Part shown: one piece after another, positions 1 to 16,527 of the stretch
Layout: each line of letters begins with the position of its first letter
Position numbering within the stretch: position 1 is the stretch's first letter
Assembly (NCBI GenBank): GCA_028279405.1
Contig: JANQNU010000020.1
Location: 1 to 64,000 of the forward strand
Length of the DNA: 64,000 nt
Reading direction: 5' to 3'
From: Phycisphaerae bacterium
GTDB lineage: Bacteria > Planctomycetota > Phycisphaerae > UBA1845 > Fen-1342
Notes under the pieces: model-generated
The model's input: only the letters and a program-made list of their open reading frames with translations
The model's database searches: none
Told to the model about the DNA's origin: nothing
Program-made: the position numbers and the translations under genes

Positions 1-609
1 TTCAGTCCTTGGAACACGTTATGCGCCGACGTCGACTGCGGCGGGCCTGCGACCGGTGCCTGCTGCGTCGACGGTGTCGCCGGCCGGACGTGCGTCGAGC
101 TGACGCGCGAAGAATGCGATGCCGCGACCGGCGGCGTCTACTTCGGCGACGGGAGCAGCTGCGATAACGTCGTCTGCGACACGCCGGCCACCGGGGCATG
201 CTGCCGCTTCTCGCCCGGCTTGCCAACATGCTCGATTACCACGCAACTCGAATGCGAGCAGTTCGGCGGCGCTTACCAAGGCGACGGAACCAACTGCGCC
301 GACAACGGCTGCTTCCTGCCCCTGATCGGCGCCTGCTGCACCGATCTGCCGGGCAACCCGATCGGCTGCGTCGAAGTCCCGCTCGCACTGTGCCAGCAGA
401 TCGGCGGAACGTTCCAGGGCGCGGGCACGACCTGCACAGACGTGAACTGCAACAGCCAACCGCGCGGTGCCTGCTGCGTGGACGGCTTCGGCGGCCGCTT
501 CTGCGTCGAACTGACCCGCGAGGCCTGTGATGCCGCGACCGGCGGCGTCTACTTCGGCGACGGAACGTCCTGCAACAACGTGAACTGCGGGGACGATCCG
601 ACGCGCTAG
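1..609 (+). CDS. Cys-rich GACC-repeat secreted protein, 3' part
   Basis: The reading frame is open from base 1 to the TAG at 607-609, so the start lies upstream of the window. The visible 202 residues hold the end of one repeat and four full repeats of about 42-46 residues. Each repeat follows the plan GACC...C...C...GG.Y.GDGT.C....C, with six cysteines. The last repeat (GACCVDG..GRFCVELT, then ATGGVYFGDG) is followed by a short tail, CGDDPTR, and no membrane anchor or dockerin-like module. The next gene downstream is built from the same repeat and ends almost the same way (CGGNPTQ), so the two are paralogues in tandem. The even cysteine count and repeated spacing suggest a disulfide-bonded extracellular protein; no enzymatic motif is visible. 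I do not recognise it as a named family, and the role (surface fibre, adhesin or matrix protein) is inference only. Confidence 0.85.
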   Translation, partial: FSPWNTLCADVDCGGPATGACCVDGVAGRTCVELTREECDAATGGVYFGDGSSCDNVVCDTPATGACCRFSPGLPTCSITTQLECEQFGGAYQGDGTNCADNGCFLPLIGACCTDLPGNPIGCVEVPLALCQQIGGTFQGAGTTCTDVNCNSQPRGACCVDGFGGRFCVELTREACDAATGGVYFGDGTSCNNVNCGDDPTR

Positions 610-672: not shown

Positions 673-1044
673 TTGCGCCCCCAGCCGACGGTAGCGCCGG
701 ACCGAGACATCGGACGCGACGGGATACAGGCATCCCAATCCCGCGCGTAATTCACCGGAACCGGTCCCGAGCAACACGCCTTGGTCGCTTGACAAAACTC
801 CGGAACCGCTTTCGGTTGATAAAAATAATCGCACGAACGCACAGCGCGCTGCACACTAGTACGCGCGGTAACATCGCAGTTAATCTATGGTTACCGCGCG
901 ACAACGTGATCGCTTGCAGGGAAATCTTTATAAACGATAACGAATTCGCGACAAAGTACTGGACTTTCTCTGGAAAACGATAGAATGTCCGTGCGCTCAT
1001 TTCTTACACAGCCCATTTTCTCGACACAACTTGGAGGAAGTCTG
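673..1044 (+). promoter_or_regulatory. AT-rich upstream region of the second GACC-repeat gene
   Basis: No gene is supported here. From about 780 to 1040 the base composition becomes clearly AT-richer than the flanking coding DNA. It contains a perfect TTGACA at 789-794, but no well-spaced -10 partner; the AT-rich run at 820-829 (TAAAAATAAT) lies 25 bases away. A long leader or a promoter is likely, but its exact position cannot be fixed. Confidence 0.35.
1033..1037 (+). promoter_or_regulatory. Ribosome binding site deciding the start at 1045
   Basis: GGAGG lies 7 bases before the ATG at 1045. The upstream in-frame ATG at 985 has no such site and would put 20 residues ahead of the natural signal peptide MRRCCCLATTLVLCW. 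Confidence 0.75.
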
Positions 1045-3768
1045 ATGAGGAGATGTTGTTGTCTCGCAACAACGCTGGTTCTGTGTTGGAGCCTGAACGC
1101 ATTCGCGCTGGTTCCGACCGAGGTGAGCGGACAGGGGGAGATTCAAGCGACACAAGTAACGGATTCGGTGGAAGGTGAGGCGCAAGCCCTGGCGGCGCCG
1201 CGCCGCGGTGCGTGCTGCGTCGATGGCTTCGCGGGTCGTTTCTGCATCATCCTCACACGTGCGGAGTGCGAGGCGTCGACCGGCGGTGTCTACTACGGCG
1301 ACGGTACAACCTGCGACAACATCACCTGTACCGAGCGGCGACCAATTCTCGGTGCCTGCTGCATTCGCACGGCTCTGGGCGCGGTTTGCCTCGAGGTGAC
1401 GCGACGTGATTGCGAATCGTTCGGCGGGTTCTGGTTTGGTGCAGGAACGCGCTGCTCCCAGGTCGATTGCGACGCGACGCCGCGCGGCGCCTGCTGCCTC
1501 GACGGCCTCACGGGCCCCATCTGTGTCGAGATCACGAAAGAACGTTGCCTGGCCAACGGCGGCACGTACTTCGGCGACGGCACGCGCTGCTCGCAAATCG
1601 ACTGCCCGGTCCCGCAAGGCGCCTGCTGCCTGAGCGTTTCCGACTTCACCGCTCGTCGATGCATCGTCACCACCAAGGAGAAGTGCCTTTCCATCGGCGG
1701 AACCTATCGCGGTGACGGCACCGACTGCTCCGAGGTCGATTGCCCGCCGGTCGGCGCCTGCTGCATTCCGGACCTGACCGGACGCCGGTGCGTCGAAACG
1801 ACCCGCGAACGGTGCGAGGCCATCGGTGGCGACTATCAAGGCGACGACGTCCCCTGCACGAACGTTATCTGCGAACCGGTCGGCGCCTGCTGCCTCTACC
1901 TCGCGGACGGCAACGTCATCTGCGTGGTGACGACCAAGCGCCGCTGCATCGATGCCGGCGGCGTCTACCGTGGTGACGGAACCACCTGCGCCACCGTCGA
2001 CTGCACCGAACTCGAAGGTGCCTGCTGCATCTACAACGAAGACTGCACGGTCACCTGCATCGTCACCACCCTGCGCCGCTGCCGCGAAACGGGCGGCGTC
2101 TTCCAGGGCTTCGGCACCAACTGCCTGACTCGTTGCCCGCCGCGACGTGGCGCGTGCTGCTACTACAACCACCATGGCGTGGGCACGTGCGTGATCACCA
2201 ACCGTTGCGAATGCGAATCGACCGGCGGCACCTATCAGGGTGACGGCACGGTCTGCAACGACGACACCTGCCCGACGCTGACCGGGGCCTGCTGCCTGTA
2301 CGACCCTGATACGTGCACCGCGAGCTGCCTTGTAACGACCGTCGAGCGCTGCATCGACCTCGGTGGCGGCTACTTCGGTCATAACACCACCTGCGCCGAC
2401 GTCGACTGCCCGGTCGTGACCGGCGCCTGCTGCATCTACGACAACGACGGCAACGGCTCGTGCGTCGTCACCACCAAGTGCCGCTGCGAGGACCTCGGCG
2501 GTCGGTACCAGGGCGACCACACCAACTGCAACGATGACACTTGCCCGCCGCGCCGCGGTGCCTGCTGCATCGAGAATGCGAACTGCACCGTCTCGTGCAT
2601 TATCACCACTGAAGAGCGCTGCCGCGAAGCCGGTGGTGACTACCGTGGCGACGGCACGGCCTGCAGCTTCACCAGCTGCCCGATCGCGATCGGCGCCTGC
2701 TGCATCTACGACGACCAGGGCATCGGTACCTGCGTCCAGACGTCGGAGTGCCGCTGCGAGCTGCAAGGTGGCGTCTACCAGGGTGACGGCACGCTGTGCG
2801 CCTTCACGACTTGCCCGCCGTTGACCGGCGCCTGCTGCATCGAAGACGCCAACTGCAACGTCAGCTGCATCGTCACCACGCTGCGGCGCTGCCGGGATCT
2901 CAACGGCACGTTCCAGGGCTTCGGCACCAACTGCCTCTCGCAGATCTGCCCGGTACGGACCGGCGCCTGCTGCATCTACAACGTGCAGGGTATCGCGACT
3001 TGCGTCGTGACGACCAAGTGCCGTTGCGAGGCGCGCGGTGGTACCTACCAGGGCGACGGCGTGCCGTGCACGAACACGACATGCCCGCCGCGGCTGGGCG
3101 CATGCTGCATCGAGGGTCCGGACTGCGACATCCGCTGCGAAGTCACGACGCTGCCCAAGTGCCTCGATCAGAATGGCGTCTTCCAGGGCTTTGACACGGA
3201 CTGCACCGATCGCTGTGACGTAGCGATCGGCGCTTGCTGCATCTATGACGCGCAAGGCAACGCGACCTGCATCGAAACGTCCGAGTGCAAGTGCGATCTG
3301 CGTGGCGGCGTCTATCAGGGCGACGGTACGCGATGCAGCCTTACCGAATGCCCGCGCCCGGCCGGCGCCTGCTGCGTCCGGATCTTTGATCCGCCGTTCT
3401 GCTTCGAAGGAACGGAAGAGGAATGCCGTGAGCGCGGCGGCATCTATCAGGGCAACGGCGTGAGGTGCACCGACGTGAACTGCGAGCGGGTCGGCGCCTG
3501 CTGCCTGTTCGATACGACCGATCCGCCGGTCTGCATCGTCGTCACCAAGTTTGCCTGCGCCTGGCGCGGCGGTGTCTACCAGGGTGACGGTACGAACTGC
3601 GCCGACGTCGCTTGCCAGCGTCTCGGTGCATGCTGCGTCGATGGTGTCGCCAGCCGCTTCTGCCTGCAACTGAACGCCGCGGATTGCGCGGCCGCAACGG
3701 GCGGTGTGTTCTATGGCGCGGGTGTGCCCTGCAGCGCGATTGACTGCGGCGGCAACCCGACGCAGTAG
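1045..3768 (+). CDS. Secreted Cys-rich protein with 19 GACC repeats
   Basis: A 907-residue protein with an N-terminal signal peptide (MRRCCCLATTLVLCW, then a hydrophobic stretch ending near NAFA). After a short linker come 19 consecutive repeats of about 42 residues on the plan GACC(I/L/V)...C.(V/I).T...C...GG.(Y/F).G.GT.C....C, then a short tail CGGNPTQ. Repeats 1-6 and 17-19 have six cysteines each. Repeats 7-16 have seven each and alternate in two types (see separate entry). I counted no catalytic motif, transmembrane anchor or dockerin-like module. The first and last repeats resemble each other and the last repeat of the upstream paralogue (GACCVDG...RFC). The composition demands export and oxidative folding, so a disulfide-rigidified extracellular filament or coat protein is plausible, but this is inference. 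The start is set by GGAGG at 1033-1037. A strong hairpin follows the stop. Confidence 0.88.
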   Translation: MRRCCCLATTLVLCWSLNAFALVPTEVSGQGEIQATQVTDSVEGEAQALAAPRRGACCVDGFAGRFCIILTRAECEASTGGVYYGDGTTCDNITCTERRPILGACCIRTALGAVCLEVTRRDCESFGGFWFGAGTRCSQVDCDATPRGACCLDGLTGPICVEITKERCLANGGTYFGDGTRCSQIDCPVPQGACCLSVSDFTARRCIVTTKEKCLSIGGTYRGDGTDCSEVDCPPVGACCIPDLTGRRCVETTRERCEAIGGDYQGDDVPCTNVICEPVGACCLYLADGNVICVVTTKRRCIDAGGVYRGDGTTCATVDCTELEGACCIYNEDCTVTCIVTTLRRCRETGGVFQGFGTNCLTRCPPRRGACCYYNHHGVGTCVITNRCECESTGGTYQGDGTVCNDDTCPTLTGACCLYDPDTCTASCLVTTVERCIDLGGGYFGHNTTCADVDCPVVTGACCIYDNDGNGSCVVTTKCRCEDLGGRYQGDHTNCNDDTCPPRRGACCIENANCTVSCIITTEERCREAGGDYRGDGTACSFTSCPIAIGACCIYDDQGIGTCVQTSECRCELQGGVYQGDGTLCAFTTCPPLTGACCIEDANCNVSCIVTTLRRCRDLNGTFQGFGTNCLSQICPVRTGACCIYNVQGIATCVVTTKCRCEARGGTYQGDGVPCTNTTCPPRLGACCIEGPDCDIRCEVTTLPKCLDQNGVFQGFDTDCTDRCDVAIGACCIYDAQGNATCIETSECKCDLRGGVYQGDGTRCSLTECPRPAGACCVRIFDPPFCFEGTEEECRERGGIYQGNGVRCTDVNCERVGACCLFDTTDPPVCIVVTKFACAWRGGVYQGDGTNCADVACQRLGACCVDGVASRFCLQLNAADCAAATGGVFYGAGVPCSAIDCGGNPTQ
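2014..3351 (+). repeat. Ten alternating seven-cysteine repeats (five A/B pairs)
   Basis: This coding stretch holds repeats 7-16 of the GACC protein. Odd-numbered repeats (type A) carry an extra cysteine in the first loop, as in GACCIEDANCNVSC, and often read FQGFGTNC. Even-numbered repeats (type B) lack that cysteine, read GACCIYxxxGxxTC, and instead have an extra cysteine just before the conserved one (KCRC, ECRC, RCEC, ECKC). Each repeat thus has seven cysteines and each pair fourteen. The period of the array here is two repeats, about 250-255 bp. Confidence 0.85.
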
Positions 3769-3804
3769 CCGCACGGCTCACCACAACGGCGCAAGTGCCC
3801 TCCA

Positions 3805-10792: not shown

Positions 10793-13426
10793 ATGAACGA
10801 TCGACGCCGGGTGGTCCGTATCCTGCGACCGCTGACCTGTACGCTGCTGGTTGGCGCATTCACTGGACCGTTGGTCGATGCCGCGGCGCCGGCCGACTCG
10901 ACGATCGACGACGTCGCGGAGTTCCTGCACCACGAAGCGCCGGACATGGCACCCTGGCGTGGATCGGACGGGCGGTTTCGTAGCGCCCCGCTGCCGGCGA
11001 CCGCGCTATCGGTCGGCAACTTCCAGTCAATCCAGGTCAACATCGACGCGGATGGTTTCAACATCGTCGGCGACGCTGCGAACGAGCCGTCGCTCGCAAT
11101 CGACCCGACCAACGCAAGTCTGCTGGCCGTAGGTTGGCGACAGTTCGACGCGATCGCCTCCAACTTCCGACAAGCCGGCGTGGCCGTGAGCGCCGATGCG
11201 GGCCTGAGCTGGACCAACCTGGGCGTCCTGACACCCGGGACATTTCGAAGCGACCCGGTACTCGAGGCCGGCCGCGACGGAACCTTTTACTACTACAGTC
11301 TGGACAGCGATCTGGTCTGCCAGATGTTCATCTCGAACGATGGCGGCTTCACCTGGACCGATCCGATACCGGCACTCGGCGGCGACAAGGCCTGGCTCGT
11401 GGCGGACACGCAGGCACCTGGGCCCGGGCCGGCACCCATCTACATCGCATGGAACTTCTTCGCCGGTTGCTGCGAGAACGCGACCTTCACGCGATCGTTC
11501 GATGGCGGACTCACGTACGACACGGCCGTCGAGGTTCCGGAGATGCCGTTGTTCGGCTCGATCTGCGTCGACCCGGCCGGCGATGTCTACTTCGCGGGCC
11601 GCATACCGCTCACTGCAAGCGAGCTGCGGGTGACAAAGTCGACCGACGCGAAAGACCCGCTGGTTCAGACGCCGACGTTCACGACCACGACGATCGATGT
11701 GGGCGGATCGATTCGCGGCGGTGCCGGCCCCAACCCGGCGGGCCTGCTCGGCCAGCTCTGGATCCAGTCCGACCGATCGAACGGCCCCAACCGCAGCAAC
11801 CTCTACATCTGTGGCTCGGTCGATCCACCCGGCTCTGACCCGTTGGACGTAATGTTCATCCGCAGCGTCGACGGCGGCACAACGTGGAGCGCGCCCCAGC
11901 GACTCAACCAACCGACCGGCGCTGGTGACGACTCGTGGCAGTGGTTTGGAACGATGGACGTCGCACCCAACGGGCGCATCGACGTCATCTGGAACGATAC
12001 GCGGAATGACCTTGAGCCCTCGCAGCCCACACTCTCCGAGATCGTCTACCGGTCATCGTTCGACGGCGGCCTGACCTGGACGGATGAGCAGATCATTACG
12101 CCGCAATTCAATCACTTCCTGGGGTATCCCGCGCAAAACAAGCTCGGCGACTACTACCAGCTCCGCTCCGATCTCACCGGTGCCAGCCTGATCTATGCCG
12201 CGACCTTCAACGGCGAACAGGACGTCTACTTCGTCCGCATCGGCGATTTCGACTGCAATTCCAATGGCATTCCCGACGCGCAGGACCTCGCGATGGGTGC
12301 TGACGACTGCAACGCCAACGGACGACCGGACGAATGTGAACCCGATTGCAACGGCAACGGGATCGCCGACGAATGCGATATCACCAGCGGCTTTTCAGTC
12401 GATTGCAACCAGAACGGCGTACCCGACGATTGCGACATCGCCAGCGGTTTCGAGACCGATTGCAACGGGAATGAGATTCCAGACGGATGCGACCCGCTCG
12501 TTGATTGTAACGACAACCTGATCCAGGATGCTTGTGAGACAGACTGCAACCAGAACGGCGTACCGGATGATTGCGACCTCGACAGCGGGTTCGCCGTTGA
12601 CTGCAACGGCAACGCCGTGCCCGACAGCTGCGACATCTCCAGCGGCTTCGACCCGGATTGCAATGGAAACCAGATCCCGGACTCCTGCGATTTCGCTGTC
12701 GGCGTTGCACTCGACTGCAACGCGAACGGCGTACCGGATAGCTGCGACATCGCGAGCGGGTTCGCTGACGATTGCAACAACAACGGCGTCCCCGACAGTT
12801 GCGACCTGAGCGGCGGCTACCGCGCACCGTCGTTACGACTCACGCCACTCCAAGCCGGGACGGTGCTGACCTACGACCTGCCGAATCCGCAGCCGGCGGT
12901 GGGCGAAGTGGAGATCCACCTGGAGGCGAGCGGAGACCTGAGTTCGATGCCTGAGTTCGTTACGGTGTCCGTGAACGGCACGCCGCTCGGCGACGCGTTC
13001 GTGATGGGCGCGACCGACTGCCCGCAGGTCCCGGACATGGACACGTTTACCGTTTCGGCTGGCGCCTACAACGCGGCTGCGGGGAACGGACCGGCGCTCG
13101 TCGAGCTGACGCCGTCGATCCGCGTCGGATCCATCTGTAGCGAATCATTCGCGCAAGTGACCGTGACGTACCCCACCGCCGGCAAGGCCGGGGCGGACAT
13201 CAATGGCAACGGCGTGCTCGACGAGTGCGAAGGGCTGGGCGATCTCGATTGCAGCGGTAGCGTCAGTGTCGCCGACATCAACCCGTTTGTGTTGGCGCTC
13301 ACCGATCCGAAGGCTTACCAGCAACAGTTTCCGGAGTGCGACCTGCTCCGCGGCGATACCACCGGCGACGGTCAGCTCTCCGTCGCGGACATCAACGGAT
13401 TCGTCCAGCTGGTGACGCCGAACTGA
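10793..13426 (+). CDS. Secreted Asp-box propeller protein with calcium loops and dockerin-like end (copy 1)
   Basis: An 877-residue secreted protein. A signal peptide (MNDRRRVVRILRPL, then hydrophobic to VDAAAPAD) precedes a region of about 480 residues with five Asp-box (BNR) motifs of the S-x-D-x-G-x-x-(W/Y) type: SADAGLSW, SNDGGFTW, SFDGGLTY, SVDGGTTW and SFDGGLTW. Such motifs mark sialidase-like beta-propellers, though no catalytic sialidase set can be claimed. Next come 11 short loops of the form DCNxNGxPDxCD, which resemble thrombospondin type 3 or EF-hand calcium loops, then a beta-rich stretch, one more loop, and a final dockerin-like pair (GDLDCSGSVSVADINPF and GDTTGDGQLSVADINGF). 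ATG at 10793 follows GAGGAG at 10781-10786. The next gene is a full-length paralogue of identical length. A role in glycan binding or surface display is inference. Confidence 0.85.
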   Translation: MNDRRRVVRILRPLTCTLLVGAFTGPLVDAAAPADSTIDDVAEFLHHEAPDMAPWRGSDGRFRSAPLPATALSVGNFQSIQVNIDADGFNIVGDAANEPSLAIDPTNASLLAVGWRQFDAIASNFRQAGVAVSADAGLSWTNLGVLTPGTFRSDPVLEAGRDGTFYYYSLDSDLVCQMFISNDGGFTWTDPIPALGGDKAWLVADTQAPGPGPAPIYIAWNFFAGCCENATFTRSFDGGLTYDTAVEVPEMPLFGSICVDPAGDVYFAGRIPLTASELRVTKSTDAKDPLVQTPTFTTTTIDVGGSIRGGAGPNPAGLLGQLWIQSDRSNGPNRSNLYICGSVDPPGSDPLDVMFIRSVDGGTTWSAPQRLNQPTGAGDDSWQWFGTMDVAPNGRIDVIWNDTRNDLEPSQPTLSEIVYRSSFDGGLTWTDEQIITPQFNHFLGYPAQNKLGDYYQLRSDLTGASLIYAATFNGEQDVYFVRIGDFDCNSNGIPDAQDLAMGADDCNANGRPDECEPDCNGNGIADECDITSGFSVDCNQNGVPDDCDIASGFETDCNGNEIPDGCDPLVDCNDNLIQDACETDCNQNGVPDDCDLDSGFAVDCNGNAVPDSCDISSGFDPDCNGNQIPDSCDFAVGVALDCNANGVPDSCDIASGFADDCNNNGVPDSCDLSGGYRAPSLRLTPLQAGTVLTYDLPNPQPAVGEVEIHLEASGDLSSMPEFVTVSVNGTPLGDAFVMGATDCPQVPDMDTFTVSAGAYNAAAGNGPALVELTPSIRVGSICSESFAQVTVTYPTAGKAGADINGNGVLDECEGLGDLDCSGSVSVADINPFVLALTDPKAYQQQFPECDLLRGDTTGDGQLSVADINGFVQLVTPN

Positions 13427-13893: not shown

Positions 13894-16527
13894 ATGTACG
13901 ATCGGCGTTGGATCGCAGGTACCGTGCAAGTACTGGCATGCGCGCTGCTCGTCGCAGCCGTTTCCAATCCGACGGCCGGCTCCGAGTTGCCGACCGGTTC
14001 GGCCGCTCACGATCTGGAAGCATCAGGGCACCGCGAAGCGCCCGACATGGCGCCGTGGCGCGGCGAGGACGGCCGACTTCGGACTGCCCCCCTCCCGGCC
14101 GCTGCGCTGAAGGTCGGCGACTTTCAATCGATTCAGGTCAACACCGACGCCGACGGCGCCAACATCGTTGGCGATGCTGCCAACGAGCCGTCGATCGCAG
14201 TCGACCCGACCAATCCCAGCCGATTGGTGGTGGGATGGCGGCAGTTCGATGCGATTGCCTCCAACTTCCGGCAGGCGGGACGCGCAATCAGCGCCGACGC
14301 CGGCCTGAGCTGGACCAACCTCGGCGTCTTCACACCCGGCACTTTCCGCAGTGATCCGGTGCTCGAAGCCGGCCGCAACGGGACGTTTTACTACTACAGT
14401 CTCGACGGCACGTTCAACTGTCAGATGTTCATCTCGAACGACGGCGGCCAAACGTGGACAGACCCGATCCCGGCTCTCGGCGGCGACAAGGCCTGGGTCG
14501 TCGTCGACGACACGCAAGCGGTCGGGCTGGATCGTATCTATATCGCGTGGAACACCTTCGCCGGCTGCTGCGACGGGGCCACGTTCACGCGATCGTTCGA
14601 TGGTGGACTTTCGTACGACACGGCAGCGTTCATTCCCGAGATGCCGCTGTTCGGCTCGATTTGCGTCGATCCGGCCGGTGATGTCTACGTCGTGGGGCGA
14701 ACGCCGAGCTCGCCGGGCCAGTTGCGGGTGGCGAAGTCGACCGACGCGAAGAACGTACTGGTCCCGACGCCGACCTTCACGTCCACACCGATCGACCTGG
14801 GTGGTTCGGTGCGACTGAGTGCCGGTCCAAACCCGGGAGGGTTGCTCGGCCAGCTCTGGATTCAATCGGACCGTTCGGGCGGCCCGAACGACGGCAACCT
14901 CTACGTATTCGGATCGGTGAATCCGCCGGGGCCGGACCCGCTGGACGTGATGTTCAGCCGTAGCATCGACGGCGGCGAGACCTGGAGTGCTCCCGTGCGG
15001 ATCAACCAGCCGAAGAGTGCCGACGACAACTCCTGGCAGTGGTTCGGGACGATGGACGTATCACCCGATGGCCGCATCGACGTGATTTGGAACGATACCC
15101 GGAACGATCTCGATCCCTCGGATCCGACACTCTCCGAGATCGTCTATCGGTCGTCGTTTGACGGCGGCGAGACCTGGACGGATGAGCAGATCATCACGCC
15201 GCAATTCAATCACTTCCTGGGCTACCCGATGCAGAACAAGCTTGGGGACTACTACCAGCTCCGCTCCGATCGCACGGGCGCCAGTCTGATCTACGCTGCG
15301 ACGTTCAACGGCGAGCAGGACGTTTACTTCGTACGGATCGGCGACTTCGATTGCAATGCCAATGGCATTCCCGACGCGCAGGACCTCGCGATGGGCGCTA
15401 CTGACTGCAACGACAACGGGCGTCCGGACGAGTGCGAACCCGATTGCAACGGAAACGAGATCGCCGACGAATGCGACATCGCCAGCGGCTTCGCGCCCGA
15501 TTGCAACAGTAACGGCGTTCCCGACAGTTGCGACATCGCCTCGGGTTTCGACTTCGATTGCAACGGTAATGGCATCCCGGATGGTTGTGACGTGGCCGTC
15601 GAAGACTGCAACGGCAATCTCATCCCCGATGACTGCGAAGCGGATTGCAACGAGAACGGTATACCCGACCAGTGCGACATCGCCGCCGATCCGGGCCTGG
15701 ATTGCGATGGCAACTTCCAACCCGATTCCTGCGACATTGCAAGCGGTCTGGCCGACGACTGCGACGCGAATGGGACGCCGGACGTTTGTGACCTGGCTGT
15801 CGGCACCGCGTTGGACTGCAATGCGAACGGCATCCCCGACAGTTGCGATATTGCGAGTGGCTTTGTCGACGACTGTAATCTGAACGGGATTCCCGACAGC
15901 TGCGACCTGATCGGAACGTTCCGCGCCGCGTCACTTCCGCTGTCGCCGCTTGCAGCCGGCACTGTTCTGAGCTACGACCTGCCGGGAGTCCAGCCGGCGC
16001 TCGGCGATGTGGAAATCCGCCTCGAAGCGATCGGCGACCTGAATACGTCGCTCGAATTCCTATCGCTGACGCTCAACGGTACAGCTGTCGGCGACGGCTT
16101 CGTGACGGGCGCCGCCGACTGTCCGCAAAGCGTCAATGTCGACGCGCTGTCGGTTCCACCGGGAACGTACAACGCGATCGTGGCGAACGGGCCGGTCCGA
16201 CTCGAGATCACGCCGTCGCCGGCGGTCGGTGCGATCTGTGCCGAATCCTTCGTACGTGTTACCGTCACGCACCAAACGGACAGTGCCAAGAGCACCGACG
16301 TCAATGGCAACGGTACACTCGACGAATGTGAGGATCTGGGCGACCTCGACTGCAGCGGAAGCGTCAGCGTGGCGGACATCAACGCGTTCGTCCTGGCCCT
16401 CACGGACCCGGGCGCCTACACGAAGCAGTTTCCCGAATGCGATCCACTTCGTGCCGACGCAAATGGTGATGGGCAGCTTTCCGTTGCGGACATCAATGGG
16501 TTTGTGGTCCTCGTAACGCCGAGCTGA
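13894..16527 (+). CDS. Secreted Asp-box propeller protein with calcium loops and dockerin-like end (copy 2)
   Basis: An 877-residue paralogue of the preceding gene, with the same length and the same domain order. The signal peptide is MYDRRWIAGTVQVLACALLVAAV, ending near AGS. The propeller region keeps the five Asp-boxes (SADAGLSW, SNDGGQTW, SFDGGLSY, SIDGGETW, SFDGGETW). It has 11 DCNxNG-type loops followed by a beta-rich segment, a twelfth loop (DVNGNGTLDECED) and the dockerin-like pair GDLDCSGSVSVADINAF and DANGDGQLSVADINGF. ATG at 13894 follows GAGGAGG at 13881-13887; the bases around the start resemble those of the first copy, so the duplication included the leader. The propeller is strongly conserved between copies, while several calcium loops and the linkers differ (loops 8 and 9 here are DCD rather than DCN). 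A terminator follows. Confidence 0.85.
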   Translation: MYDRRWIAGTVQVLACALLVAAVSNPTAGSELPTGSAAHDLEASGHREAPDMAPWRGEDGRLRTAPLPAAALKVGDFQSIQVNTDADGANIVGDAANEPSIAVDPTNPSRLVVGWRQFDAIASNFRQAGRAISADAGLSWTNLGVFTPGTFRSDPVLEAGRNGTFYYYSLDGTFNCQMFISNDGGQTWTDPIPALGGDKAWVVVDDTQAVGLDRIYIAWNTFAGCCDGATFTRSFDGGLSYDTAAFIPEMPLFGSICVDPAGDVYVVGRTPSSPGQLRVAKSTDAKNVLVPTPTFTSTPIDLGGSVRLSAGPNPGGLLGQLWIQSDRSGGPNDGNLYVFGSVNPPGPDPLDVMFSRSIDGGETWSAPVRINQPKSADDNSWQWFGTMDVSPDGRIDVIWNDTRNDLDPSDPTLSEIVYRSSFDGGETWTDEQIITPQFNHFLGYPMQNKLGDYYQLRSDRTGASLIYAATFNGEQDVYFVRIGDFDCNANGIPDAQDLAMGATDCNDNGRPDECEPDCNGNEIADECDIASGFAPDCNSNGVPDSCDIASGFDFDCNGNGIPDGCDVAVEDCNGNLIPDDCEADCNENGIPDQCDIAADPGLDCDGNFQPDSCDIASGLADDCDANGTPDVCDLAVGTALDCNANGIPDSCDIASGFVDDCNLNGIPDSCDLIGTFRAASLPLSPLAAGTVLSYDLPGVQPALGDVEIRLEAIGDLNTSLEFLSLTLNGTAVGDGFVTGAADCPQSVNVDALSVPPGTYNAIVANGPVRLEITPSPAVGAICAESFVRVTVTHQTDSAKSTDVNGNGTLDECEDLGDLDCSGSVSVADINAFVLALTDPGAYTKQFPECDPLRADANGDGQLSVADINGFVVLVTPS

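Follow-up and report, generated by a model that had tools for sequence, protein, structure and literature searches.

A candidate disulfide staple between neighbouring repeats of a putatively secreted planctomycete protein whose repeat is a likely relative of the iRhom homology domain

Why should a protein built of cysteine-rich tandem repeats carry an additional cysteine (Cys) in ten successive repeats, at one site in every odd-numbered repeat and at another in every even-numbered one? The question is raised by a gene located at positions 1045-3768 (plus strand) of the window, by which we mean the whole 64,000-nucleotide stretch of Phycisphaerae bacterium DNA that was analyzed. The translation of this gene (P0001) contains 907 amino acids and 128 Cys. 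Four of these Cys lie in a signal-peptide-like N-terminus (MRRCCCLATTLVLCWSLNAFA, 1045-1107, plus strand), recognized by inspection of the sequence. Minus this predicted signal peptide, P0001 has a mass of about 93 kDa, an acidic composition (pI near 4.5) and 124 Cys, which represent 14% of its residues and all lie inside repeats. An earlier note on this DNA had described the protein as giant, a term which fits poorly with such a size, all the more as a larger paralogue is encoded on another contig. Translation more likely starts at ATG 1045 than at ATG 985, because the Shine-Dalgarno-like GGAGG that we read from the sequence precedes the former and the signal-like sequence opens there. We infer that P0001 is a secreted tandem-repeat protein, its secretion, location and role all being putative.

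Cutting P0001 at each GACC motif yields 19 repeats of 43-48 residues (~45), all encoded on the plus strand, in which the canonical Cys are numbered C1 to C6. Repeats 1-6 (1207-2016) and the C-terminal repeats 17-19 (3364-3765) contain six Cys each. The ten repeats in between (repeats 7-16, 2017-3363) contain seven, and fall into two types, five A and five B, which alternate strictly. In type A, the extra Cys is at position 10/11, four residues before C3. This type comprises the odd-numbered repeats: repeat 7 (2017-2148, extra Cys codon 2044-2046), repeat 9 (2284-2421, codon 2314-2316), repeat 11 (2557-2691, codon 2584-2586), repeat 13 (2827-2961, codon 2854-2856), and repeat 15 (3097-3228, codon 3124-3126). 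In type B, it is at position 20, two residues before C4, thereby creating a CxC motif. This type comprises the even-numbered repeats: repeat 8 (2149-2283, codon 2206-2208), repeat 10 (2422-2556, codon 2479-2481), repeat 12 (2692-2826, codon 2749-2751), repeat 14 (2962-3096, codon 3019-3021), and repeat 16 (3229-3363, codon 3286-3288). Translation and repeat parsing thus confirm both the alternation of seven-Cys repeats and the nine six-Cys repeats reported in the earlier note.

If five A and five B repeats were placed at random among 19, a contiguous alternating block would be obtained with P about 9e-7, a null model which ignores duplication and in which the ten repeats are wrongly counted as ten independent events. 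The gene shows a 270-nt tandem period (TRF), corresponding to two repeats, and mean identity outside the shared Cys is 45% among A repeats and 55% among B repeats, vs 0.38 (as a fraction) between A and B. As A resembles A, B resembles B, and the period spans two repeats, the sequence indicates that an A-B doublet was copied by duplication within the gene. Both extra Cys are kept in all five copies, while the remaining sequence has diverged by about half. The informative point is this retention through all copies, rather than the P value of the alternation.

Upstream of P0001, positions 1-609 (plus strand) encode the 3' end of a paralogue (four complete GACC repeats with six Cys each, plus an incomplete repeat), which probably continues contig C7. 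An open ORF at the end of C7 (L166; 1,624 aa, 34 repeats) is also a GACC protein. As both lie on the same strand and the junction bases match (14 bases match, and bases 1-17 of the window are reverse-complementary to the end of C7), they probably form a single protein of ~1,800 aa, split by the assembly. The first repeat of the L166 ORF is devoid of C4 (GACCVNGIIGRFCLELTREQGSFANGG), leaving five Cys. On the minus strand, a 925-aa open frame (997-3774) lies antisense to the entire repeat gene and is probably explained by the codon usage of a Cys/Gly-rich, GC-rich sequence. Elsewhere in the window, two adjoining plus-strand ORFs (10793-13426 and 13894-16527) are each exactly 877 aa long and possibly represent tandem paralogues; the second has a weak BNR repeat match, and the ORF that comes after them (1,031 aa) has no Pfam match.

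To which partners could the extra Cys be bonded? The answer depends on how many Cys are occupied within each repeat, which can be approached through GACC repeats at large. Repeats of this type are found in 55 of the 61 genomes searched with profiles; a DNA pattern (CC...C...CxC) applied over the order had proved unspecific, as a reversed control matched about as often or more. From 149 ORFs, 1,312 repeats were parsed. Among the 1,250 complete ones, 1,170 contain exactly six Cys, 73 contain seven, and six contain eight. Cys counted at C6+3 and beyond after the last repeat of an array were removed, as they are an artefact of the fixed window. Clean internal losses of two Cys affect C2 and C6 in 11 repeats and C1 and C4 in six, each in several proteins; apparent paired losses of C5 and C6 were left out, as most correspond to misaligned shifted Cys or truncated repeats. 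Cys that are lost together are normally bonded together. The joint disappearance of C1 with C4 and of C2 with C6 thus implies, at the level of sequence comparison, canonical bonds C1-C4, C2-C6 and, by exclusion, C3-C5. As such a pairing would use all six canonical Cys, each seven-Cys repeat would keep exactly one spare Cys. In L150 and L115, C2 and C6 are shed together in several of repeats 11-15, which are natural two-disulfide variants.

In the same 149 ORFs, extra Cys are concentrated at three sites: C4-2 (the B site; 35 cases, one of them misaligned), C4+4 or C4+3 (hereafter X), and C3-4 (the A site). Site X lies after the helix of the repeat, so that the partner is placed differently from that of type A. 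Site A was seen in the window only, and the A-B form was not found outside this genome among 397 genomes of the class. Doublets with the same layout (A or X repeat first, B repeat with its Cys at C4-2 next) are found five times in the window, as A-B, and in nine other proteins, as X-B. The latter include arrays of eight repeats (L128, L127, and L143, where the array forms the tail of a protein with two CxxCH motifs), 12 repeats (L098, which consists of repeats only) and 11 repeats (L248, which has a weak esterase/PETase-like match), as well as X-B doublets that occur singly in four Kazal-type proteins, flanked by Kazal and other domains (L225, L229, L238, and L228). Three of these, L225, L228, and L238, are heavily Cys-based multidomain secreted proteins, combining Kazal inhibitor domains, CCDPAxxPGxGGNPxCFEGASCC repeats and one X-B doublet.

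The order within doublets is highly constrained. A B repeat directly follows an A or X repeat in 32 of 35 cases, and 32 of 34 A or X repeats are followed by a B repeat, whereas such neighbours averaged 15 and never exceeded 22 when labels were shuffled within runs (2,000 times). The array of the window and eight others open with an A or X repeat and close with a B repeat. The tenth (L248) also closes with B and opens with B, this opening repeat being directly preceded by a stub with three Cys (CCEEAGDEC), before which the ORF has no Cys.

When the extra Cys are masked, A and B repeats of the window are closest to each other and to the six-Cys repeats of the window itself, and for this reason the A-B doublet probably arose, as judged from these sequences, apart from the X-B doublets. 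As many X-B arrays are mutually orthologous, there were perhaps two to four independent origins of the doublet, rather than nine. Repeats which keep one extra Cys and have lost the other, which the earlier note had named as grounds for refuting its proposal, do occur but are rare. A lone B is found in repeat 2 of L025, which has an odd number of mature Cys (73), and perhaps in repeat 1 of L155, where no partner repeat is evident; a lone X is found in repeat 12 of L172. These repeats show that a single extra Cys is tolerated. In the f8 X-B arrays (L128, L127, L143, and L098), the X repeat of the third-last pair has an additional Cys directly after C6, conserved in all four; it makes the Cys total of L098 odd and fits none of the pairings proposed.

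We modelled repeats 7-10 and 8-11 with AF2, on 14-row alignments. Both models have a pLDDT of 90.5 and a pTM of 0.60-0.61, the latter leaving the orientation of one repeat relative to the next uncertain. Within each repeat, residues 2-6 and 12-16 are predicted to pair as a hairpin, residues 19-24 to fold into a short helix and, usually, residues around 28-32 to add a third strand. The extra Cys is located in the hairpin turn in A, in the first turn of the helix in B, and just behind the helix in X. In the first model, the pLDDT of linkers hinted that A-B joints are stiffer (80 at the joint between B8 and A9). The second model gave 93 for that joint, and linker pLDDT, which does not tell A-B from B-A joints, was dropped.

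Taken together, these observations are best explained by a disulfide between the extra Cys of an A repeat and that of the B repeat which follows it, producing five stapled doublets in a secreted GACC protein, an explanation which we consider fairly probable. Each repeat of ~45 residues would be a module held by its own disulfides (beta-hairpin, short helix, and third strand), and the Cys in the hairpin turn of A would bond the Cys in the first helical turn of the next B. Repeats 7-16 would thus be a string of five stapled two-repeat units, flanked by unstapled six-Cys repeats. The staple would lock the angle between A and B, and may stiffen the segment and help it to withstand unfolding and proteolysis, as would suit an acidic, stable spacer or a component of the extracellular space or envelope. 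In other planctomycete proteins, doublets with the partner Cys at another site would have arisen separately. The proposal in the earlier note that extra Cys bridge neighbouring repeats is supported in this form by the same B site in three other families, by stand-alone X-B doublets, by the A/X-then-B order of nine of the ten arrays, by the stub in L248, and by the single spare Cys per repeat. The covalently cross-linked continuous rod which it derived from this bridging does not follow: the evidence places the bond inside the A-B doublet, nothing points to a bond between doublets, and a rod would require two spare Cys per repeat.

The latter argument also bears on the direction of bonding. A bond from B to the A repeat that follows, alone or in combination with the A-to-B bond as a continuous rod, gains some credit from uninterrupted arrays, in which B-A neighbours are nearly as frequent as A-B neighbours (23 vs 32 over all arrays). 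Bonding at both joints is nevertheless impossible with one spare Cys per repeat. As for B-to-A bonds alone, the array ends make them unlikely and, like the stand-alone doublets, fit a bond from A or X to the following B, so that we regard this whole alternative as very improbable indeed. Wherever the bond lies, pairing must be heterotypic, because single X-B doublets exist and because each type occurs an odd number of times (five) in the window. Heterotypic pairing would equally be achieved between molecules, with A of one chain bonded to B of another and fibres or a cell-wall-like layer being cross-linked in this way. This is the main rival of intrachain stapling: complementary sites and even Cys totals fit it equally well, the odd totals of L025 and L098 suit a dimer, and Cys-rich cell-wall proteins are known in Planctomycetales (PMC8567305). 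However, single X-B doublets in multidomain proteins and the strict A/X-then-B order are most simply understood within one chain, and we judge interchain bonding to be unlikely.

The extra Cys might alternatively form no structural disulfide at all. A metal ion could be bound, or redox chemistry performed, by the extra Cys of A and the CxC of B acting jointly: CxC is a common metal-thiolate motif, and a partner Cys located at different places in A and X is compatible with such a role. Yet the second Cys of the CxC is the canonical C4, whose partner is C1 according to the paired losses. Each doublet would thus have no more than two free thiols, and the A and B columns contain no conserved His partner, which makes metal binding or redox chemistry improbable. 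Finally, the alternation could be a mere by-product of doublet duplication, the extra Cys having neither partner nor function, as might be suspected from the clustering of A and B by type, the 270-nt period, and the existence of lone B and lone X repeats. This reading is quite improbable, given that both extra Cys have been kept in five of five copies that are only about 50% identical, and that other protein families show the same B site with its partner one repeat earlier. Stapling of each A or X repeat to the following B repeat is therefore the reading we retain.

Beyond the window, the same genome encodes further GACC proteins on contigs C7, C57, C83, C46, C36, and C30. Named relatives are mostly from Planctomycetota MAGs, many of which are labelled Phycisphaerales or Phycisphaerae. 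GACC repeats are dense in the order of the window. A thin sampling of the phylum gave matches at E <= 1e-6 in 20 of 392 genomes, and plasmids yielded no match. P0001 matches no named bacterial family above the curated cut-offs of Pfam-A and NCBIfam. GACC repeats are thus an unnamed, abundant planctomycete repeat family, for which the pairing of Cys proposed above provides a putative disulfide plan. The statement in the earlier note that no named family has this plan holds for Pfam and NCBIfam, but not for solved structures, as a likely relative exists in the iRhom homology domain.

Among known Cys-rich systems, the YTV-domain cell-wall proteins of Planctomycetales (PMC8567305) resemble P0001 in being large, Cys-rich planctomycete proteins of envelope type, the envelope role of P0001 being putative. 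YTV proteins are reported from Planctomycetales only, whereas GACC repeats are dense in the order of the window, and, with the E-value limit set at 1, Pfam detected no YTV domain in P0001 and no other match above noise. EGF-like and other disulfide-rich modules are small, like the GACC repeat, and, as is proposed for it, extracellular with three disulfides; they are repeated in many architectures. EGF modules are paired 1-3, 2-4, 5-6, in contrast to the 1-4, 2-6, 3-5 pairing suggested for GACC repeats by the joint losses of C2 with C6 and C1 with C4. No EGF profile in Pfam matches P0001; weak hEGF matches occur in two of 12 X-B doublets (best E 0.0023).

The only likely relatives of the repeat among solved structures, by profile and by fold, are modules of human iRhom1 and iRhom2. 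When a profile of 36 repeats was searched against PDB sequences (hmmsearch), the best matches were iRhom1 (E 8.5e-5 and 1.1e-4) and iRhom2 (3.1e-4 and 8.7e-4), the next one having an E of 0.32; iRhom1 and iRhom2 were likewise the best matches of a profile built from the repeats of the window alone. The entries concerned (9xy4, 9q7y, 8snl, and 9o58) were also the only ones among the solved structures compared to reach Z >= 2 against either AF2 model in VIA-align. They gave Z of 4.3-4.9 and 1.6-1.8 A over 39-42 residues, with 28-34% identity against both models, Z<8 being a range in which similarity can reflect a common arrangement. Foldseek alone returned no PDB match of E < 2, hence nothing significant. 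Profile and fold comparisons point to the same residues of iRhom2 (about 568-607), where all six Cys line up. Class IIa bacteriocins (1ry3, 7vly, and 5ukz) also show a resemblance, between their YGNGV..C....C start and the C-terminal GGxYxGDGTxC....C of the repeat (E 0.04 at best), which is probably due to chance.

The second module of iRhom1 and iRhom2 has six Cys in the order and spacing of the GACC repeat (CC-x6-C-x7-C-x13-C-x4-C), and a first module (ACC..C..C) is also visible. Although both are short and Cys-rich, the GACC repeat and the iRhom module are likely homologous. Their settings differ, however: iRhoms are rhomboid pseudoproteases in which two diverged modules sit between the first two membrane helices, while P0001 consists of 19 near-regular tandem copies in a putatively secreted, rhomboid-free protein. 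Indeed, P0001 has no Rhomboid match in Pfam and, as none of 30 rhomboid loci in the family of the window carries a convincing GACC repeat, there is no bacterial iRhom-like protein here. The cryo-EM study of the iRhom homology domain reports that nothing similar exists in the PDB or among the AlphaFold models of human proteins (PMC11248996).

We regard as evenly balanced the broader proposal that a two-repeat staple evolved more than once in this unnamed planctomycete family, with a B Cys whose position is fixed and a partner located at either of two sites, in a module which is a bacterial relative of the iRhom homology domain. If it is true, neighbouring modules would provide a testable design rule for where to place two Cys in stapled repeat proteins, and proteins that naturally contain both stapled and unstapled arrays would allow stiffness and stability to be compared directly. 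A bacterial counterpart would be gained for the ADAM17-controlling iRhom domain, and a human signalling regulator whose fold was supposed to be without precedent would have the source of that fold, or a sister of it, in planctomycetes.
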